NCBI GenBank assembly: GCA_022732315.1
Contig: JAIJUV010000087.1
Location: 1-9,716 of the forward strand
From: Prevotella sp.
Lineage (GTDB): Bacteria > Bacteroidota > Bacteroidia > Bacteroidales > Bacteroidaceae
DNA: 9,716 bases
Reading direction: 5' to 3'
The position numbers and the translations under genes were made by a program. Positions 1 to 9,716 of this stretch are shown piece after piece (the stretch's first letter is position 1; each line of letters opens with the position of its first letter). The notes under the pieces are model-generated. The model was given only the letters and a program-made list of their open reading frames with translations, was not told the origin of the DNA and made no database searches.

Positions 1-2433
1 GCGAACCTTAGTCTCCGGATAGTCGAAAGCCATGCCCATCATATCTACTACGCCACCGAAATTGTAATGACAGGTTACAGCCACCGAACCGTCAGAAAGG
101 AACTGCCAGTCTACCTCATCGAGTGAGCCATGCTGGTATGTAGCCACTAGCTTTGCCTCCGCTTGCTTCCATTCGAAACCGGCAAAAGCGCCCTGGTCAA
201 CAAACTCGGTATAGAGTGTCTTTTTCTTCTCAGCCTCTTTGTCATCGTGATTATAGAACTGGTCCAGACTGCGGTCGCTTCTTCTGGCAGCCATAAACCG
301 AGGACCATTGCTCAGCGAGATTGCCTTGCTGCCAACCTCAACACCCATCAGTCTGCCATCTTTCTTGGTAAAGCGATAAGTTCTGCCACCCGCCTTCACT
401 TCAACAGCATCAGCCTGGTCAGCATAAACAGCAGATGAAGCACTTGAAGTACTTGGAGCACTTGAATTTTTCACGCTTCGTTCTTCACTCTTCACTCCCC
501 TGCTCCATGTCATGATTTCCTCACCTTCATGGTTCACAGCCTTGATTTCTACCGCATCAGCATTCGCCATCATCGGTATCTTCACCTTGGCTTCCTTGCC
601 CGGAGCTACATCCGGAGAAGAGAGATTGCCCTGCTTCAACACCTTGACCTGAGTGCTGCCCATCGCTGGCATCTGCAACAGACGATAAGAGAAACGGCAA
701 TCCTTCAGATTCACGAAGTTATACAGATTGGATAAGGTGAGTTCACCTTTCTCCACATCATTCCAAGTCAACTGTACCGGGCACCATACCTCTTTAATCG
801 TATAGTAAGAACCTTCCTTCTCGGCATGAGGGCCCACGATACCATCGGCTCCGAAGTTACCCATACAGTCTACATAATTATTCTTGTCAGTACGCACCAC
901 ACCCTGGTCCATCAGATCCCAGAGGAATCCGCCGGCACAGCGAGGGTTCGCCATCATCATGTCCCAGTAATCCTTCAGTCCTGCTCCGTGTCCACCGTCA
1001 TACAGACCATGCAGGAACTCGGTAGGCATGAAGATTTCTTTCTGTCGCATATACTCCTGGGTCTCGCCATAAGAACGGTAGTGCTTGGTTTCAAAGCCGT
1101 TGCGGTTAGCCCAAGGATAGAGAACCACGCGTTTCTGCTTGTCCCAAAGAGCGAAGTCTGGTTCCAGTTCGTAGTTGAAACCACCCTCGTTACCGTTGCT
1201 CCAGAAGATGATGCTAGGATGGTTCTCATCACGGGTAATCATCTCCTTCACCAGCTGCTTGCCCACGATGGTAGGATGCGCCCAATGCCAGCCGCTCAAT
1301 TCACATTCTACATATAGACCGAGCGAATCGCATGCCTCCAGAAACTCAGGATCGGCAGGATAATGACTCAATCTCACGGCATTCATGTTCATGCTCTTGA
1401 TGAGTTTCACATCTTCTATATTCTTCGCCTTACTCAGCGTTCTACCGGTCTCAGGACGGAAGCTGTGACGGTTCACACCTTTGAAGATGACTTTCTGACC
1501 ATTGATATAAACGCCATCGCTGGCACGGTATTCGATGGTGCGGAAGCCGAACTTCTGACGCTCTCTGTGGAGCGTCTTGCCTGCTGCATCCTGGAGTGTG
1601 AAAACGGCAGTATAGAGATGTGGAGTCTCAGCAGTCCACAGCTTAGGTGCCTTCGTCTGGAAGTCGACATGTGCCTCATCGCTGTTTCTGGCATCAGCCA
1701 CGTTCGATGCTACCACCTTTCCTTTCTCATCCAGAATCTCGGTCTTCACCTTCGCCCCCTTGACGGCACGGTTCAGGTAGCAGTCTGCCATAAAATGACC
1801 ATCGCCCTTGGCATCAATCGCCACACGGTCGATGTTCTCCGCAGGTTTCGCCACGATGAATACAGGACGGAAGATGCCGCCGAAGTTCCAGTAGTCAGCA
1901 CGGCGCTCCGCCATGTTCACCTGACTGTTGCTACTCTCCTTGCTCACCTCCACTTCGAGTCTGTTCTTATGTTTTCCGAAGAAGATGCGGTCGCTCACAT
2001 CGTAAGTAAAGCGATAGAAACCGCCCTGATGCAAACCATTTCCCGCCTTTCTGCCGTTGATGGTTACCTTGGCATCGGTCATCACGGCTTCGAAGACGAG
2101 TTCTATCTGTTTGCCCTCCCACTCCTGTGGCAGCGTAAACTCATATTTATATTTTCCTTTTTCGTCAGCAATACCTTCCGGAGTAGCCTTTCCGTAGAAT
2201 CGCATGCCATACTGATAGGTACCGAATCCCTGCAGTTCCCAGCAGGAAGGCACACCAATCTTGGTCCACTTGCCGGCATTTCTACCACCTGTGCAGTAGA
2301 AGTCCCAGTTCACCATATCATCACATCCATGTCCCGAGAGGTACTGGCGCTGTGTATCAATACTAGCCTGTGCGGCAGCAGTCATCGCCATCGCCCCCAA
2401 AGCTATTATTAAAAACGTTTGTTTTAGATACAT
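1..2433 (-). CDS. Secreted glycoside hydrolase family 2 enzyme, divergent beta-galactosidase type (C-terminus cut off by window edge)
   Basis: The first 811 residues are present; the stop lies outside the window. It starts MYLKQTFLIIALGAMAMTAA, a type I signal peptide ending near AAAQA with no lipobox Cys, so it is probably periplasmic. By motif reading, a GH2 sugar-binding domain covers about 35-195, an Ig-like domain 200-295 and a TIM barrel from about 300 (KFGFR at 294-298, GVNRHSF, RLSHYP). The likely acid/base is E416 in SNGNEGG and the nucleophile E472 in MPTEFLHG. LacZ-like C-terminal domains follow, interrupted by a Ser-rich linker near 656-668. The DEANxETHG metal-site motif of LacZ is replaced by ECELSGWHW (376-384), so the substrate may not be plain lactose. 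In-frame ATGs also lie at 2463 and 2475. I chose 2433 because it gives a compact signal peptide and a normal leader. GH2 membership is secure; exact substrate is unknown. Confidence 0.9.
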   Translation of the reverse strand, partial: MYLKQTFLIIALGAMAMTAAAQASIDTQRQYLSGHGCDDMVNWDFYCTGGRNAGKWTKIGVPSCWELQGFGTYQYGMRFYGKATPEGIADEKGKYKYEFTLPQEWEGKQIELVFEAVMTDAKVTINGRKAGNGLHQGGFYRFTYDVSDRIFFGKHKNRLEVEVSKESSNSQVNMAERRADYWNFGGIFRPVFIVAKPAENIDRVAIDAKGDGHFMADCYLNRAVKGAKVKTEILDEKGKVVASNVADARNSDEAHVDFQTKAPKLWTAETPHLYTAVFTLQDAAGKTLHRERQKFGFRTIEYRASDGVYINGQKVIFKGVNRHSFRPETGRTLSKAKNIEDVKLIKSMNMNAVRLSHYPADPEFLEACDSLGLYVECELSGWHWAHPTIVGKQLVKEMITRDENHPSIIFWSNGNEGGFNYELEPDFALWDKQKRVVLYPWANRNGFETKHYRSYGETQEYMRQKEIFMPTEFLHGLYDGGHGAGLKDYWDMMMANPRCAGGFLWDLMDQGVVRTDKNNYVDCMGNFGADGIVGPHAEKEGSYYTIKEVWCPVQLTWNDVEKGELTLSNLYNFVNLKDCRFSYRLLQMPAMGSTQVKVLKQGNLSSPDVAPGKEAKVKIPMMANADAVEIKAVNHEGEEIMTWSRGVKSEERSVKNSSAPSTSSASSAVYADQADAVEVKAGGRTYRFTKKDGRLMGVEVGSKAISLSNGPRFMAARRSDRSLDQFYNHDDKEAEKKKTLYTEFVDQGAFAGFEWKQAEAKLVATYQHGSLDEVDWQFLSDGSVAVTCHYNFGGVVDMMGMAFDYPETKVR
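431..466 (-). repeat. Four degenerate 9-bp repeats encoding a Ser-rich linker
   Basis: On the plus strand the units are GCAGATGAA, GCACTTGAA, GTACTTGGA and GCACTTGAA. In the GH2 reading frame they encode a Ser/Ala/Thr-rich stretch around residues 656-668. The period of 9 keeps the frame, so copy number could change without breaking the gene. It sits at the junction before the last beta-sandwich domain and is probably a flexible linker. Confidence 0.6.
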
Positions 2434-2475
2434 ATTGTTTATTCCGTATTTGTTTATATTCATTTTGTTATTCAT

Positions 2476-2508
2476 CAATAAAGACTCATAAACACAGATT
2501 TTGTAACT
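2476..2508 (-). promoter_or_regulatory. Two-box promoter-like element upstream of the divergent GH2 gene
   Basis: Read on the minus strand this is AGTTACAAAA, 13 bp, GTCTTTATTG, ending 42 bp before the ATG at 2433. The same two 10-mers at the same 13-bp spacing occur before the other complete GH2 gene (7266-7298), while the spacer sequences differ. That pattern indicates paired recognition sites. The GTTACA/GTC boxes about 16 bp apart resemble the geometry of ECF sigma-factor promoters, and no TAnnTTTG box is seen here. The sigma-factor reading is inference; the duplication is directly visible. Confidence 0.6.
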
Positions 2509-2532
2509 ATTTAGCAAATCGGAAATACGCCT

Positions 2533-2575
2533 ATAAGCTGCGAAAATATATCAAAAATCATCAACTTTCGCAGAT
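2533..2575. repeat. Direct repeat, downstream copy flanking the ATPase gene; also an imperfect palindrome
   Basis: This 43-bp sequence matches 3807-3848 except for one extra base. It begins ATAAGCTGCGAAA and ends TTTCGCAGAT, with inverted arms CTGCGAAA/TTTCGCAG around a 20-nt A/T-rich centre. In this copy the dyad extends to 15-bp arms (2531-2545 and 2566-2580) with one mismatch, and its edge lies 2 bp beyond the ATPase stop codon. It could fold as an RNA hairpin after that gene, but no U-tract follows, so a simple intrinsic terminator is not well supported. Confidence 0.85.
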
Positions 2576-2582
2576 TATAGAG

Positions 2583-3698
2583 CTAATTCAGCCACAGCTT
2601 CATCAGTTGGTCATCAATATTGTACGTACCCAACGAAGTAGATACCAGATGATACTCCAGCAATTTCTTGATGGCAGACTGAACGCTGCTGGCAGAGCGT
2701 AGATTATGCCGTTTTACAAAAACAGTGGAAGTAATCTGCCTGGCAATGCCATCCTTGGCTATCGCATAGAGCAATTCCTTCTGAGGGAGCGTGAGACGCG
2801 ACAAGATTTCACTAAACTTACGGTCGTTGTCCAATATCATCATGTGGATGATGGCTTCCGCCATCGCCTTGTCAGCCTTGCCCTTTACATCTGTCTGGTT
2901 GAAAGCTTCATGAAACACCTTCTGCATATAATACGTATTTCCTCCGAACGTATCATAGACATCACGCACAGCCTCTTCCTCCACGTCCTTCCCAAACCTG
3001 GCAAACAAACTTTTCGCAAATTCCAAATACTTATCGTATGGTATCACCTCCAAGTTCATCATGTCGGCACTATTGTAGAATGGATGCGCCTTTTCGGAGA
3101 ACATCTTCGTAATGAGATGGCGCTCGCTACCAGAGAATATGAAGTTGGCATTGCTGCACTTCTGCACATAAGTGCGTAAGATTGCTTCCATGTTCTTCTC
3201 TGGATAATAGCCAATCTGCTGGAACTCGTCTATCGCCACGATACATTTCTTGTCGGCATGCTCCAAACAGGCAAATATCTCATCCAGGGTATAGAGCGGA
3301 TTGGAGATATCACCTAGCGAAAGGTTAAAGGTCGGCGTGTTCGAGATGGGGTCATAACCGAAACACCCATTGATAGATTTCAATGTGCTGACCACCATCT
3401 TAAGCATCTTCTGACTGCGATGAGCCGCCTGTTCGAAAACAGCCTTACCTAGTTCGAAGGCAAACTCCTGGATGCTCGAAGTACGGAGTATGTCGATGGA
3501 AATGGCGATAAAATCATTCTTGACCATCGGCGAGTCGAGACAAAAGTCGATAAGCTTACTTTTGCCCACACGCCGTGCAGCCATCAACACAATATTTTCA
3601 CCCGAAGTTACCTTTCGGATGATTTTCTCTGCCTCTACGTCTCTGTCGCAGAAGTACTCTGGCTTAATCTTGCCTGTGATAATAAAAGGATTCTCCAT
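2583..3698 (-). CDS. AAA-type P-loop ATPase with C-terminal winged helix (ATPase_2 / COG1672-like)
   Basis: A complete 371-residue cytoplasmic protein with no signal peptide or membrane segment. It begins MENPFIITGKIKPEYFCDRD, the N-terminal style of a Bacteroidota ATPase family with many paralogues. The Walker A is AARRVGKS at 40-47, with Ala in place of the usual first Gly. Walker B is IVAIDEFQQI with D157 and E158, followed by a sensor-like IFSGSERHLI stretch. The last 70 or so residues (LPQKELLYAIAKDG onward) look like a winged-helix domain. I see no DUF234-type nuclease domain. These proteins are predicted STAND/AAA ATPases of mostly unknown role, so I assign no process. The gene has its own promoter (3733-3764) and is bracketed by direct repeats, which suggests independence from the hydrolase genes. 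The start is supported by the promoter distance of about 28 nt from the expected transcript start. Confidence 0.9.
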   Translation of the reverse strand: MENPFIITGKIKPEYFCDRDVEAEKIIRKVTSGENIVLMAARRVGKSKLIDFCLDSPMVKNDFIAISIDILRTSSIQEFAFELGKAVFEQAAHRSQKMLKMVVSTLKSINGCFGYDPISNTPTFNLSLGDISNPLYTLDEIFACLEHADKKCIVAIDEFQQIGYYPEKNMEAILRTYVQKCSNANFIFSGSERHLITKMFSEKAHPFYNSADMMNLEVIPYDKYLEFAKSLFARFGKDVEEEAVRDVYDTFGGNTYYMQKVFHEAFNQTDVKGKADKAMAEAIIHMMILDNDRKFSEILSRLTLPQKELLYAIAKDGIARQITSTVFVKRHNLRSASSVQSAIKKLLEYHLVSTSLGTYNIDDQLMKLWLN

Positions 3699-3942: not shown

Positions 3943-7230
<3,288 letters not shown>

Positions 7231-7298: not shown

Positions 7299-7345
7299 GA
7301 GAATGAGTACTTTTTAGATTTACCATTGCTCTCACGCGCACACAT

Positions 7346-7504
7346 ATAAGTGTTTTTTCTCGAAAAAAGTCTCAAAGTCTCATTTTTAAGGAAAATTTCA
7401 GTTTATATATCTGATATATAAGTGTTTATAAGAATGATACTTTTCTGAAAATAGCTAGAGAAGTCTCATCGAAGTATCATAAAATAGGGAGAAGTATCAT
7501 AAAA
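7346..7504 (+). repeat. Left arm of the fold-back element
   Basis: Motif copies: AAGTCTCA 7367-7374, AAGTCTCAT 7375-7383, ATGATACTT 7434-7442 (reverse orientation), AAGTCTCAT 7461-7469, AAGTATCAT 7472-7480 and 7492-7500. It also holds a 12-bp direct repeat, ATATAAGTGTTT, at 7344-7355 and 7416-7427, and an 8-bp A/T hairpin at 7403-7421. Confidence 0.8.
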
Positions 7505-7561
7505 AACCGGCAAACAGCATACAAAACAAGCGAAATATCAAACGAAATGCATCAATTATGT

Positions 7562-7718
7562 CCACGTACGTGGTTACTCGTACCCACGTACATGGGTAGC
7601 CATGACCACGTACATGGGTACGAGTGACCAAAACGATGGGTATCCATGCCCAAAACCTTGGGCAACCATGCCCTACATAGTTGGGCACAAATGCCCAAAG
7701 GCTTGGGCAAGTCTGGGC
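7562..7718. repeat. Array of seven short palindromes at about 22-bp spacing
   Basis: The units are CCACGTACGTGG 7562, CCCACGTACATGGG 7583, CCACGTACATGGG 7606, CCAAAACGATGGG 7628, CCCAAAACCTTGGG 7649, CCCTACATAGTTGGG 7671 and CCCAAAGGCTTGGG 7694, then a half unit CTGGGC at 7713. The flanks CC(C)/GGG are kept and the core drifts from ACGTAC-like to AAA..TT-like. Steps between starts are 21-23 bp, about two helical turns, which fits an array of dimer-binding sites or a run of small hairpins. The step is not a multiple of three, which argues against coding. A second-level inverted repeat (7572-7586 with 7615-7629, 14/15) encloses the second unit. Confidence 0.75.
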
Positions 7719-7752
7719 AAAAGCATATATAAAGAGACTTGTCCTAATTCCG

Positions 7753-7858
7753 TAGACGTTTACTCTTTCTTAAAACTAGAAAGGTAGACACTACTACTGA
7801 TATAAAAACTGAAAAAATAGACGCTACGGACTCAAAAAGACTGAAATAATAGACGTTT
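7753..7858. repeat. Degenerate 32-33-bp tandem repeat headed by TAGAC
   Basis: TAGAC starts at 7753, 7785, 7818 and 7850, steps of 32, 33 and 32 bp. The second and third units also share an AAAACTGAAA-like tail, seen more weakly in the first. Only the head and tail are conserved, so this is not a CRISPR array. The step is close to three helical turns. Function unknown. Confidence 0.55.
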
Positions 7859-7889
7859 TTTATAGTCTTTTGCAGCAACCCAATGCCGA

Positions 7890-8047
7890 TTTCATGATAC
7901 TTCTCCCGATTTTATGATACTTCTATGATACTTTTTTGTAAAGATATTAGGAAGTCTCATTTTTACAAATCATCATATATCAACACTTTACAATAATATT
8001 TCCACCTAATAATGAGACTTTGAGACTTTTTTCTCAAAAAAACTTAT
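7890..8047 (-). repeat. Right arm of the fold-back element
   Basis: Inverted counterpart of the left arm. Motif copies: ATGATACTT 7894-7902, 7914-7922 and 7925-7933; AAGTCTCAT 7952-7960 (opposite orientation); ATGAGACTT 8012-8020 and TGAGACTT 8021-8028. Distances between copies match the left arm to within one base. Confidence 0.8.
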
Positions 8048-8055
8048 TACGCAAG

Positions 8056-8128
8056 AAAAAATCTGCGCCATCTGCGTCATCTGCGTGAGATTCTTAAGTC
8101 ACACAGATTTCGCAAATGGCGCAGATTT
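8056..8128 (-). terminator. Large stem-loop terminator of the malectin GH2 gene
   Basis: Positions 8059-8088 pair with 8099-8128 as 30-nt arms with only a few mismatches around a 10-nt loop. The outer part AAATCTGCGCCAT/ATGGCGCAGATTT is perfect over 13 bp. It starts 4 bp after the stop at 8133. Read on the minus strand the stem runs into TTTTTTCTTG, a good U-tract. The repeated ATCTGCG wording resembles dispersed palindromic repeats familiar from Bacteroides and Prevotella intergenic regions, so it may be a REP-like element serving as terminator. Confidence 0.85.
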
Positions 8129-8132
8129 CCTT

Positions 8133-9716
8133 TTATTGCACTTCCAGATAATCGAACGAAACGTTCGGAAGACCGGAGAGGATTATCTGATAGGTACCGG
8201 CATTGATCTGAGAATCAGTAGTGGTACCGATGGTCTTAAACTTATTCGGCGTTTCAGGGAAGGTCATGGCTCTATCCAGCAGGACAATGCCCTTGCTGTC
8301 CACAATCTTCAACCTGCCTACCTGTTGCTCACCGGTTGTGTTCTTATAGCGGAAACGCAACATGTATTCGCGGGCTACACCAGGATTGATGGTCCAGGTT
8401 GAGGACTTGCTCTTATAGCGCACAGCCGGGAACACTTCGTTGTCCTGAGGCAACAGCTCCTTCGGATATTTCTCTACCACATCCTTATCCAGGTCAGCCC
8501 AGTAAGTCTTGCTCATTCCGCTCTCAGGCTTGCTGCCCTTGAAGGCGGTATTCCACTTCTCAGCATCTCCTATCTCTCCCTTGGCAGCAATGGCGATGGC
8601 AGAGATGATAGCCTCTCCCACCTTAACTTCCGGGAAAGAAATGGTCAGCAGACCGCCCTTTACCTTGACATCTACCACCTTCTTGCAGGCTCCCGCAAAG
8701 CCAGCCTCAGCCCAAAGGTCGAGGTCATCTACTACCACGGAATCGTTGATAGCTACATCAAAGATGCGCTCGCCTTCACAATCGATACCGGTGCCCTCAT
8801 GCTTGCTCAGCCAAGGCTCGGCAAAATAGAGTTCTACGCGATATTCTCCATCCGGAACAGCAAACTGATAATTCAGCGCATGACGGCCCCAACGGAAATA
8901 CTGGAAGAGCTTTGCATCAGGAGCCGCAGCATGATGAGAGGCTTCAGATGATGATTTCAAGCCATGAATGCGGGAGGTGATATGTCCCTGACTCGCCGTA
9001 AACGGATTCATGCCGAAACGCTCTGCCCAGGAATGAGAATAGACGCTGTCGTCTTGCTCCCATTCGCTGCCATAACTGTCTGTAACGGCATCACCGCCAC
9101 AGTTCACTCTATACAGATAGGTATAACCCTCGGCTGGTTTCAGAAGATCTCTGTTGCGGTCGGCAGCTGTAGGCGTAAGCATATCTGGCTGCACCTTAGT
9201 ATAATGATTGCGATACCAGTAGAAGCCTTCAGTAGGCTGTTCCCAAGGCGTGAGAAGTCCCTTGTAATTGAACGGTCCCACCTTGTCGATGCGGCGGTAA
9301 GCCTCATCCGGCTGTACTCTGCCCGGGTTCTCATGCGATACGAAGAGCCACTGGAAATGGCCGCAGACGCTGTCCCTGGCACTCTCTGCCAGCATCGCCT
9401 TCTTGCTCAGAAGAGATACAAAGGCTTCTTCGGTATAGGCTTTTGACAGAGCCTTTGCATCACCGGCATGCAGTTTCTCTGCATCGGAACTGCGGAAACC
9501 GAGCGTGCGCCAGGCACCATATTCACCATTCAGCAACTGGTTAGGCTGCTTCAATTCCTGATCATATTTATCGGCTGTTCCGCCGTAGGTTCCGCTCCAG
9601 TTCTGAATCACATTCCAGTCGCTTCCCTCTCCTCCATTACAGGTCGTAATAGCACGCATGGTCTGAGCGGTAGGGTCCATCTCCCGGATGATGGCAGCAC
9701 ATTCCTCGGTGAAATC
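8133..9716 (-). CDS. Glycoside hydrolase family 2 enzyme with malectin domain (N-terminus cut off by window edge)
   Basis: The last 527 residues are present; the frame is open to the window edge, so the ATG at 9680 is internal. Fragment residues 1 to about 175 match the end of a GH2 TIM barrel: LLNGEYGAWR holds the probable nucleophile at fragment residue 65, and GHFQWLFVSHENPGR and GLLTPWEQPTEGFYWYRNHY follow the GH2 pattern. A malectin-type carbohydrate-binding domain covers about 200-375 (YRVNCGGD, YRVELYFAEP, ERIFDVAIND). A last beta-sandwich lies at about 440-527 (YMLRFRYKN to VSFDYLEVQ), similar in style to CBM6/35-like modules. It probably hydrolyses a polysaccharide or oligosaccharide, with the extra domains holding the substrate. 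The acid/base residue and export signal lie outside the window, so substrate and localisation cannot be read. A strong terminator follows at once. Confidence 0.85.
   Translation of the reverse strand, partial: DFTEECAAIIREMDPTAQTMRAITTCNGGEGSDWNVIQNWSGTYGGTADKYDQELKQPNQLLNGEYGAWRTLGFRSSDAEKLHAGDAKALSKAYTEEAFVSLLSKKAMLAESARDSVCGHFQWLFVSHENPGRVQPDEAYRRIDKVGPFNYKGLLTPWEQPTEGFYWYRNHYTKVQPDMLTPTAADRNRDLLKPAEGYTYLYRVNCGGDAVTDSYGSEWEQDDSVYSHSWAERFGMNPFTASQGHITSRIHGLKSSSEASHHAAAPDAKLFQYFRWGRHALNYQFAVPDGEYRVELYFAEPWLSKHEGTGIDCEGERIFDVAINDSVVVDDLDLWAEAGFAGACKKVVDVKVKGGLLTISFPEVKVGEAIISAIAIAAKGEIGDAEKWNTAFKGSKPESGMSKTYWADLDKDVVEKYPKELLPQDNEVFPAVRYKSKSSTWTINPGVAREYMLRFRYKNTTGEQQVGRLKIVDSKGIVLLDRAMTFPETPNKFKTIGTTTDSQINAGTYQIILSGLPNVSFDYLEVQ

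Follow-up and report, generated by a model that had tools for sequence, protein, structure and literature searches.

Satellite phage P4, which bears an integrase, has iteron regions, ori and crr, which are not known to be element ends. Plant En/Spm and Ac transposons have many short transposase sites in both subterminal regions and make target duplications, and inverted terminal repeats of the adeno-associated virus (AAV) type are mirrored ends with repeated initiator sites, the initiator being an HUH nickase. The subject of this study, a fold-back element in a contig of Prevotella sp. (JAIJUV010000087.1, assembly GCA_022732315.1; the whole stretch of 9,716 nucleotides is called the window below), can be compared with each of these, as well as with phage-inducible chromosomal islands (PICIs), Staphylococcus aureus pathogenicity islands (SaPIs), and BrickBuilt, a miniature inverted-repeat transposable element (MITE) of Porphyromonas gingivalis. 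According to the papers cited here and below, the PICI origin has two iteron sets either side of an AT-rich region (PMC6092414), SaPI initiators have helicase activity (PMC7145576), VirE and VapE domains are predicted to be helicases of mobile-element replication (PMC5862659), and BrickBuilt is intergenic, with 19 copies in one strain and internal 23-nt repeats (PMC4596501). Literature searches, with preprints and most subscription journals outside their coverage, found no paper on DUF6078 or DUF3874, and broader searches under the same limits no description of an element such as the present one.

The window element belongs to a multi-copy family of the Segatella copri complex and Prevotella pectinovora, in which full copies carry a helicase gene and a DUF6078 gene between mirrored arrays of short sites. 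With a probability of roughly 0.45, it may be a non-autonomous, gene-less derivative of such a helicase-carrying element, served in trans and with arms that are origin-like iteron arrays. The likeness to SaPIs and PICIs consists in a helicase related to PriRep1 (PDB: 7pds), two iteron sets around a middle, and iterons that vary between lineages; unlike these islands, the full copies show no integrase or phage-related gene, there are two mirrored arrays and not one origin, and gene-less copies are dispersed. P4 similarly combines a helicase that has a winged helix at its C-terminus (the alpha protein) with iteron regions that are separate, and 1ka8 is among the fold matches, but P4 differs in the placement of its iterons and in its integrase. 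En/Spm and Ac share the many short sites near both ends, but these are bound by transposase, with target duplications and unrelated proteins; AAV-type repeats share mirrored site-bearing ends, but rely on an HUH nickase, none of which was recognised here. BrickBuilt, likewise from Bacteroidota and intergenic, with inverted ends, internal repeats and partial copies, is the nearest described repeat that we have seen; in PMC4596501 it is set apart by IS5-type 12-nt terminal repeats, a distinct leader and tail, tandem repeats, and no helicase parent. By-eye comparison with Table 2 of that paper showed that the GAGACC...-type 12-nt ends of BrickBuilt are absent from the window ends.

A family with mirrored site arrays at its ends

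The two arms of the window element, 7346-7504 (159 bp) and 7890-8047 (158 bp), align colinearly, with 121 of 162 columns identical (75%) and 7 gap positions. The word AAGTMTCA occurs 12 times within these 702 bp, six times in each arm, and once elsewhere in the window; in 5,000 sequences generated by a first-order Markov model of this stretch, it occurs 0.07 times on average and twice at most. Ten of the 12 sites are exact AAGTMTCAT, and the outermost word on each side has a final A because it overlaps with the next copy. Two of the six mirrored pairs differ (7434/7952 and 7461/7925), both at the A/C position only. The first-pass annotation, made from the window sequence, had described colinear inverted arms of about 158 bp, six motif copies in each, and differences at the A/C position alone, all of which is borne out. 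The limits it gave, 7346-8047, turn out to be slightly wider: by homology to other loci the left edge is at ~7332-7343 (homology starts at 7332 against L073 and at 7341 against L082) and the right edge at 8047-8066 (homology to L085 stops at 8066).

The exact pattern AAAAGTMTCAAAGTMTCAT matched 37 stretches among genome contigs. The stretches in which sites are clustered belong to S. copri, P. pectinovora and uncultured Bacteroidales; the rest are single matches in unrelated bacteria. A looser pattern (at most one mismatch) had 10 matches in S. copri Indica, 16 in iA622, 10 in iAQ1173 and 22 in P. pectinovora P4-76, against 0, 1, 1 and 0, respectively, for its reversed control. The AAGTMTCAT-type word is confined to a narrow group, because a stricter end pattern was found in just 2 of the 299 genus genomes drawn. 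One genome (G048) has three inward-facing end pairs and one solo end. The first-pass annotation had reckoned with copies in related genomes and with an excess of the motif; the excess is that of 12 over 0.07, and copies lie at many loci, with or without genes, so that the solitary, chance array it had named as the contrary outcome is not what was found. Three viral contigs were also matched by AAAAGTMTCAAAGTMTCAT, and the end profile (see below) confirms an end on one of them, a public viral contig (L038, 10597-10755); this single family end is probably host flank or prophage.

In P. pectinovora, 14 of the 22 looser-pattern matches were fetched with flanks. For twelve of the 14 ends, the fetched flank contains no partner (one, L103, is too close to the contig edge for a partner to be excluded), and an array of the GGGC/GCCC type lies beside 8 of these 12 (230 nt inspected). 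A large element spanning distant P. pectinovora ends (26-27 kb apart) was considered and not adopted.

An nhmmer end profile was built from 46 ends, both window ends among them. To enter the profile and the site counts, an end had to match a regular expression for the outer pair and to have four or more sites, and conservation of the outer pair is therefore partly built in. Site positions are nearly invariant across the 46 ends, except position 5 (A, C or G). Over 50 unique ends with at least five sites, some orthologous and hence non-independent, the site offsets are 0, 8, 67-70 (inverted), 94-98, 105-109, and 116-119 or 125-128; a few of these ends have one site missing or extra, and in four, all from one orthologous locus (L076, L084, L142), the inner group is ~12 bp closer. 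The stretch in the middle of the end has an AT fraction of 0.72 in this family (the seed family of the comparisons below), and of 0.82 and 0.78 in the two window arms. As to the surroundings, a CGCAGAT-type word lies just outside 4 of 46 ends (background 38/4,000), three of the four being one orthologous locus.

The full copies (L073, L080, L090, L098, L162) are ~3 kb long, with DUF6078 and helicase genes between the same ends and, by eye, a GGGC/GCCC-type array between the two genes. The helicase has 615-628 aa and consists of BT4734-like N-terminal, VapE-like and C-terminal DUF3874 domains (Pfam scan of two full copies; family matches in all five). PF05272, which marks the VapE/Pri-Rep-type helicases of PICIs and SaPIs, is found in full copies, the gene lying outside the window, and the only PDB sequence match of the helicase is PriRep1. 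A winged-helix fold is predicted for the DUF3874 domain. The prediction for DUF6078 is a small protein that has four invariant cysteines and whose C-terminal part weakly resembles the helix-turn-helix (HTH) domains of C.Kpn2I and MqsA. Among the 251 genomes drawn from the family of S. copri, 114 have DUF6078 and 89 have DUF3874 above the curated cut-off. Primase activity of the helicase is doubted, since an alignment of the 11 longer helicases, inspected by eye, does not show the hhhDhD/E motif named in PMC5862659 where it would be expected; the primase-like domain is absent in 3 of 14 helicases.

A Pfam scan of two full copies found neither a transposase domain nor a Par-type domain among their proteins. 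In the remaining full copies the helicase and DUF6078 genes are the only open reading frames (ORFs) of at least 90 aa and plausible size, and a transposase was seen in none of the five (two Pfam-scanned, the others by ORF list and family matches). No integrase was found in the two large ORFs each of L016 and L034 that were scanned, other ORFs overlapping these or the ends.

Other copies hold less or different cargo. L083 retains DUF6078 alone, L082 has an AAA-ATPase/PDDEXK_9 gene instead, and neither gene is present in L075, L084, L093, L142, L143 and the window element. By eye, the GGGC/GCCC-type array is kept in seven interiors (window, L075, L083, L084, L093, L142, L143), and L093 resembles an internally deleted relative of L090. 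Short, gene-less copies with inverted ends, several per genome, as is typical of MITEs, are seen in other genomes. Of 45 end loci, 7 (L082 at 1598-3163, L073, L089, L096, L099, L100, L163) have AAA-ATPase_like/PDDEXK_9 genes within them or alongside; such genes are numerous in these genomes.

Dispersal of copies and insertion in the window

Three loci of iA622, namely L080 (full), L083 (DUF6078 only) and L082 (cargo, inverted), share one left-end type and one right-end type, with identity of 0.76-0.81 like-to-like versus 0.61-0.63 when the left end of an element is compared with its own right end. The right end of the window element is 87% identical (181 columns) to the unpaired end L085 of iA622, which has different neighbours. 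The right-flank genes of L083, L082 and L075 were found in relatives with no end-profile match in the fetched stretch; the left flanks are not syntenic in those relatives. L089 and L163 are unpaired ends of one type, seen in two genomes and both close to similar AAA-ATPase genes, which suggests an old, stable solo end.

The window element lies between a glycoside hydrolase family 2 (GH2) beta-galactosidase gene (minus strand, start 7218) and the 3' end of a gene at 8133. The latter (8133-9716) continues past the window end, and matched the malectin domain only (8133-9680 scanned); the earlier description of a place between two GH2 genes is accordingly verified on one side only, because this gene is incomplete and matched malectin alone. 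The flanking genes are adjacent in other genomes of the genus: 13 loci were fetched, 12 of which matched both genes, and in 11 of the 12 the spacer is -22 to 96 bp (extrapolated) versus 914 bp in the window, the twelfth having a 616-bp spacer filled with other sequence. End-profile matches are absent from all 12 loci. Judged by this sequence comparison, the window element is an insertion between two otherwise neighbouring genes. The relatives are just ~64-78% identical in DNA at this locus, and hence the junction is unreadable base by base.

Similar layouts in other lineages

We examined 40 loci among the listed DUF6078 matches and 40 among the listed DUF3874 matches, counting sites with one mismatch allowed. 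Mirrored arrays of other words, four to six sites per end, flank related DUF6078/helicase loci (Table 1). A helicase-independent geometry scan detected 6 loci among the 92 real ones and none among 368 Markov sequences, with the helicase between the arrays in five of the six and outside them in L312. A shared-word score of at least 60 was reached by 10 loci, four from the seed family, the maximum in 111 mismatched flank pairs being 50. Markov sequences and mismatched flank pairs replaced a reversed-sequence control (12 and 6 null matches), which is uninformative since reversal leaves mirrored arrays intact. At L202, L203 and L211 the DUF6078 gene is placed outside the arrays, while the helicase stays; at L205 and L306 DUF6078 was not found and the helicase is present.

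The matrix for a TGATA-type motif was derived from the seed family (19 of 20 stretches used), and the motif recurs in 21 ends of other lineages with a summed score of 42.0, against a mean of -21.5 (sd 15.6) and a best of 23.2 in 500 shuffles; close relatives are among these ends (L202/L203, L198/L200, two ends of L205). The best match is at offset 30-35 in 14 of the 21 ends and individually significant in 5, and several single ends lack the motif. CTTGATA is a rolling-circle nick site, and this meaning of the TGATA motif was considered and dropped because no HUH nickase was recognised in these elements.

Three of these loci have further peculiarities. In L202, mirrored ACTCTTCAC ends (3353-3459 and 4804-4910) are placed tightly around a 421-aa helicase without the primase-like domain, with DUF6078 just outside. 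L205 has a third ATTGCCAT array (6013-6097) beyond the mirrored pair, apparently a further end copy in the same genome. L312 has a 1.9-kb mirrored AAACTATA element (5108-7041) with no listed ORF of at least 90 aa inside, beside the helicase gene.

Proposed mechanism and its alternatives

The arms resemble the two-iteron-set plan of PMC6092414, with two site groups and a middle stretch in the lineages seen. Given this resemblance to the PICI origin and the literature on VapE and SaPI helicases, we take the arms to be putative helicase-bound, origin-like arrays. From the layout, gene content and dispersal of the family we infer a binding partner, origin activity, action in trans and a route of insertion, as follows. 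Each arm would present two outer and four inner lineage-specific iterons of 8-9 bp around a stretch of ~50 nt with the TGATA-type motif. The VapE-type helicase, most likely by means of its C-terminal DUF3874 domain, would bind the iterons and open or replicate the element, and the cysteine-rich, HTH-like DUF6078 may aid its binding. Both proteins would come from full copies and act in trans on the short copies, which retain only their two ends and the 22-bp array as cis parts. New intergenic places would be reached without a transposase of the element's own, perhaps by amplification and then recombination, or by an enzyme that the host or some other element provides. A gene-stripped copy with origin-like, word-bearing ends suggests a mobile element that spreads without a known transposase. 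Two suggestions of the first-pass annotation, an iteron-like array and a non-autonomous element bound by a transposase, seem to be parts of one thing. The interpretation as a whole is partly supported, but the full copies hold the helicase and DUF6078, with no transposase domain found in the two whose proteins were scanned.

Several observations weigh against the helicase-served derivative. Helicase position between the arrays is built into the shared-word score; L198, L200, L202 and L203 guided the design of the geometry scan (L211 and L312 did not); and several lineages show just four or five sites per end. These points lower the odds of the derivative and of the broader proposal given below, and raise those of a conventional MITE. 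Besides, an AT-rich middle was found in only 5 of 15 ends measured outside the seed family, no target duplication was seen by eye in 13 two-ended copies, the exact edges of which are uncertain, and no base-exact empty site was found among the relatives compared. Full copies L073, L080 and L162 are one orthologous locus (right flanks of L073 and L080 96-97% identical to that of L162; element alignments 83-92%, two of them extending into the flank), which speaks against rapid movement.

A broader proposal, that of a mobile class free of transposase, integrase and nickase, with a complete origin-like array of iterons, specific to the lineage, at each end, its own hexameric helicase and trans-served, gene-less mini-replicons, seems unlikely. 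Six sites for six helicase subunits would be an attractive match, fitting the lineage of the window, L202/L203 and L243 better than the others. If the derivative reading is true, it would join satellite-type replicons (helicase plus iterons) with miniature transposon-like repeats, kept apart so far, open DUF6078 and DUF3874, both frequent in the family of S. copri, to biochemical study, and raise the question of how new sites are entered by a helicase element in which no DNA-joining enzyme is recognised.

Among the alternatives, a conventional MITE, with ends bound by a classical transposase encoded elsewhere and with the helicase and DUF6078 as passengers, survives best, and we consider it unlikely. 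It accounts for the size, the intergenic place, the copy numbers found in each genome (several without genes, one full), the substitute cargo of L082, and the helicase outside the arrays of L312. Five of the six geometry-scan loci nonetheless have the helicase between arrays of a different word and similar layout, no target duplication was seen by eye (edges uncertain), and no transposase domain was found in the two scanned full copies, the others showing just the two genes as ORFs of the size given above.

A regulatory role, in which DUF6078 or some other regulator would use the words as operators and the arms would control neighbouring genes or the cassette, is quite unlikely, even though DUF6078 has a predicted HTH likeness and four cysteines and the window element is upstream of the GH2 gene. 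The arrays come as mirrored pairs around a cassette or gene-less filler, and it is DUF6078 that lies outside them, or was not found, at the five loci named above where the helicase stays.

A structured RNA or fold-back hairpin without protein-bound sites, also put forward in the first-pass annotation, is now very improbable. The window strand folds with z -14.9 against shuffles, which is inevitable for a long inverted repeat, and the local hairpin of the inverted site with the first inner site has at least 10 pairs in 23 of 46 ends; but in 18 of 46 it ends at 4 pairs (in the listed examples because the degenerate position is mismatched) while the sites hardly vary, direct repeats of the layout cannot pair with each other, and no Rfam match reached the gathering score. 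Equally improbable is a partition (centromere-like) site or nucleoid-protein array, to which clustered short sites and partnerless ends on several P. pectinovora contigs would be suited, as the layout goes with a replication-type helicase and lineage-specific words and the two scanned full copies lack Par-type domains.

Features of the window and its surroundings

The internal array of the element has five copies within 7593-7710, at spacings of 22, 22, 22 and 23. A scan for sigma-70-type promoters was near background (5 found versus 3.6 in shuffles).

Table 1. Parts of the window element, and site words of comparable arrays in other lineages
Feature	Position or locus	Strand	Remarks
Whole element	7332..8066, core 7343-8052	.	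widest edges from homology to other loci
Left end, six sites	7343..7501	+	nhmmer end profile, E 1e-31
Outer tandem site pair, left end, AAGTCTCAAAGTCTCAT	7367..7383	+	
Central motif, left end, TCTGATATATAAG	7410..7422	+	
Inverted site, left end	7434..7442	-	
Three inner sites, left end	7461..7500	+	starts 7461, 7472, 7492
Internal palindromic array	7560..7715	.	22-bp period, GGGTA/GGGCA ... TGCCC
Right end, six sites	7893..8052	-	nhmmer end profile, E 6e-31; 87% identity to L085 solo end
Three inner sites, right end	7894..7933	-	low ends 7894, 7914, 7925
Inverted site, right end	7952..7960	+	
Central motif, right end, GTTGATATATGATG	7971..7984	-	
Outer tandem site pair, right end	8012..8028	-	
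ACTCTTCAC	L202, L203		six sites per end
TAGTGACA	L243		six sites, outer group inverted
ATTGCCAC	L200, L198		six and five sites (L200), five (L198)
CCTCTCAC	L211		five sites
AAACTATA	L312		five sites, helicase outside arrays
ATTGCCAT	L205		four and five sites
TGGCAGAT	L306		weaker, four or five sites
CTCTCATC	L224		weaker, four or five sites

A second, unrelated palindromic repeat, AAATCTGCGCCATCTGCGTCATCTGCGTGA, adjoins the element at 8059-8128, and pieces of it match many genomes of the genus. Farther away, an ATPase gene (PF01637) is located on the minus strand at 2583-3698, between two GH2 genes.
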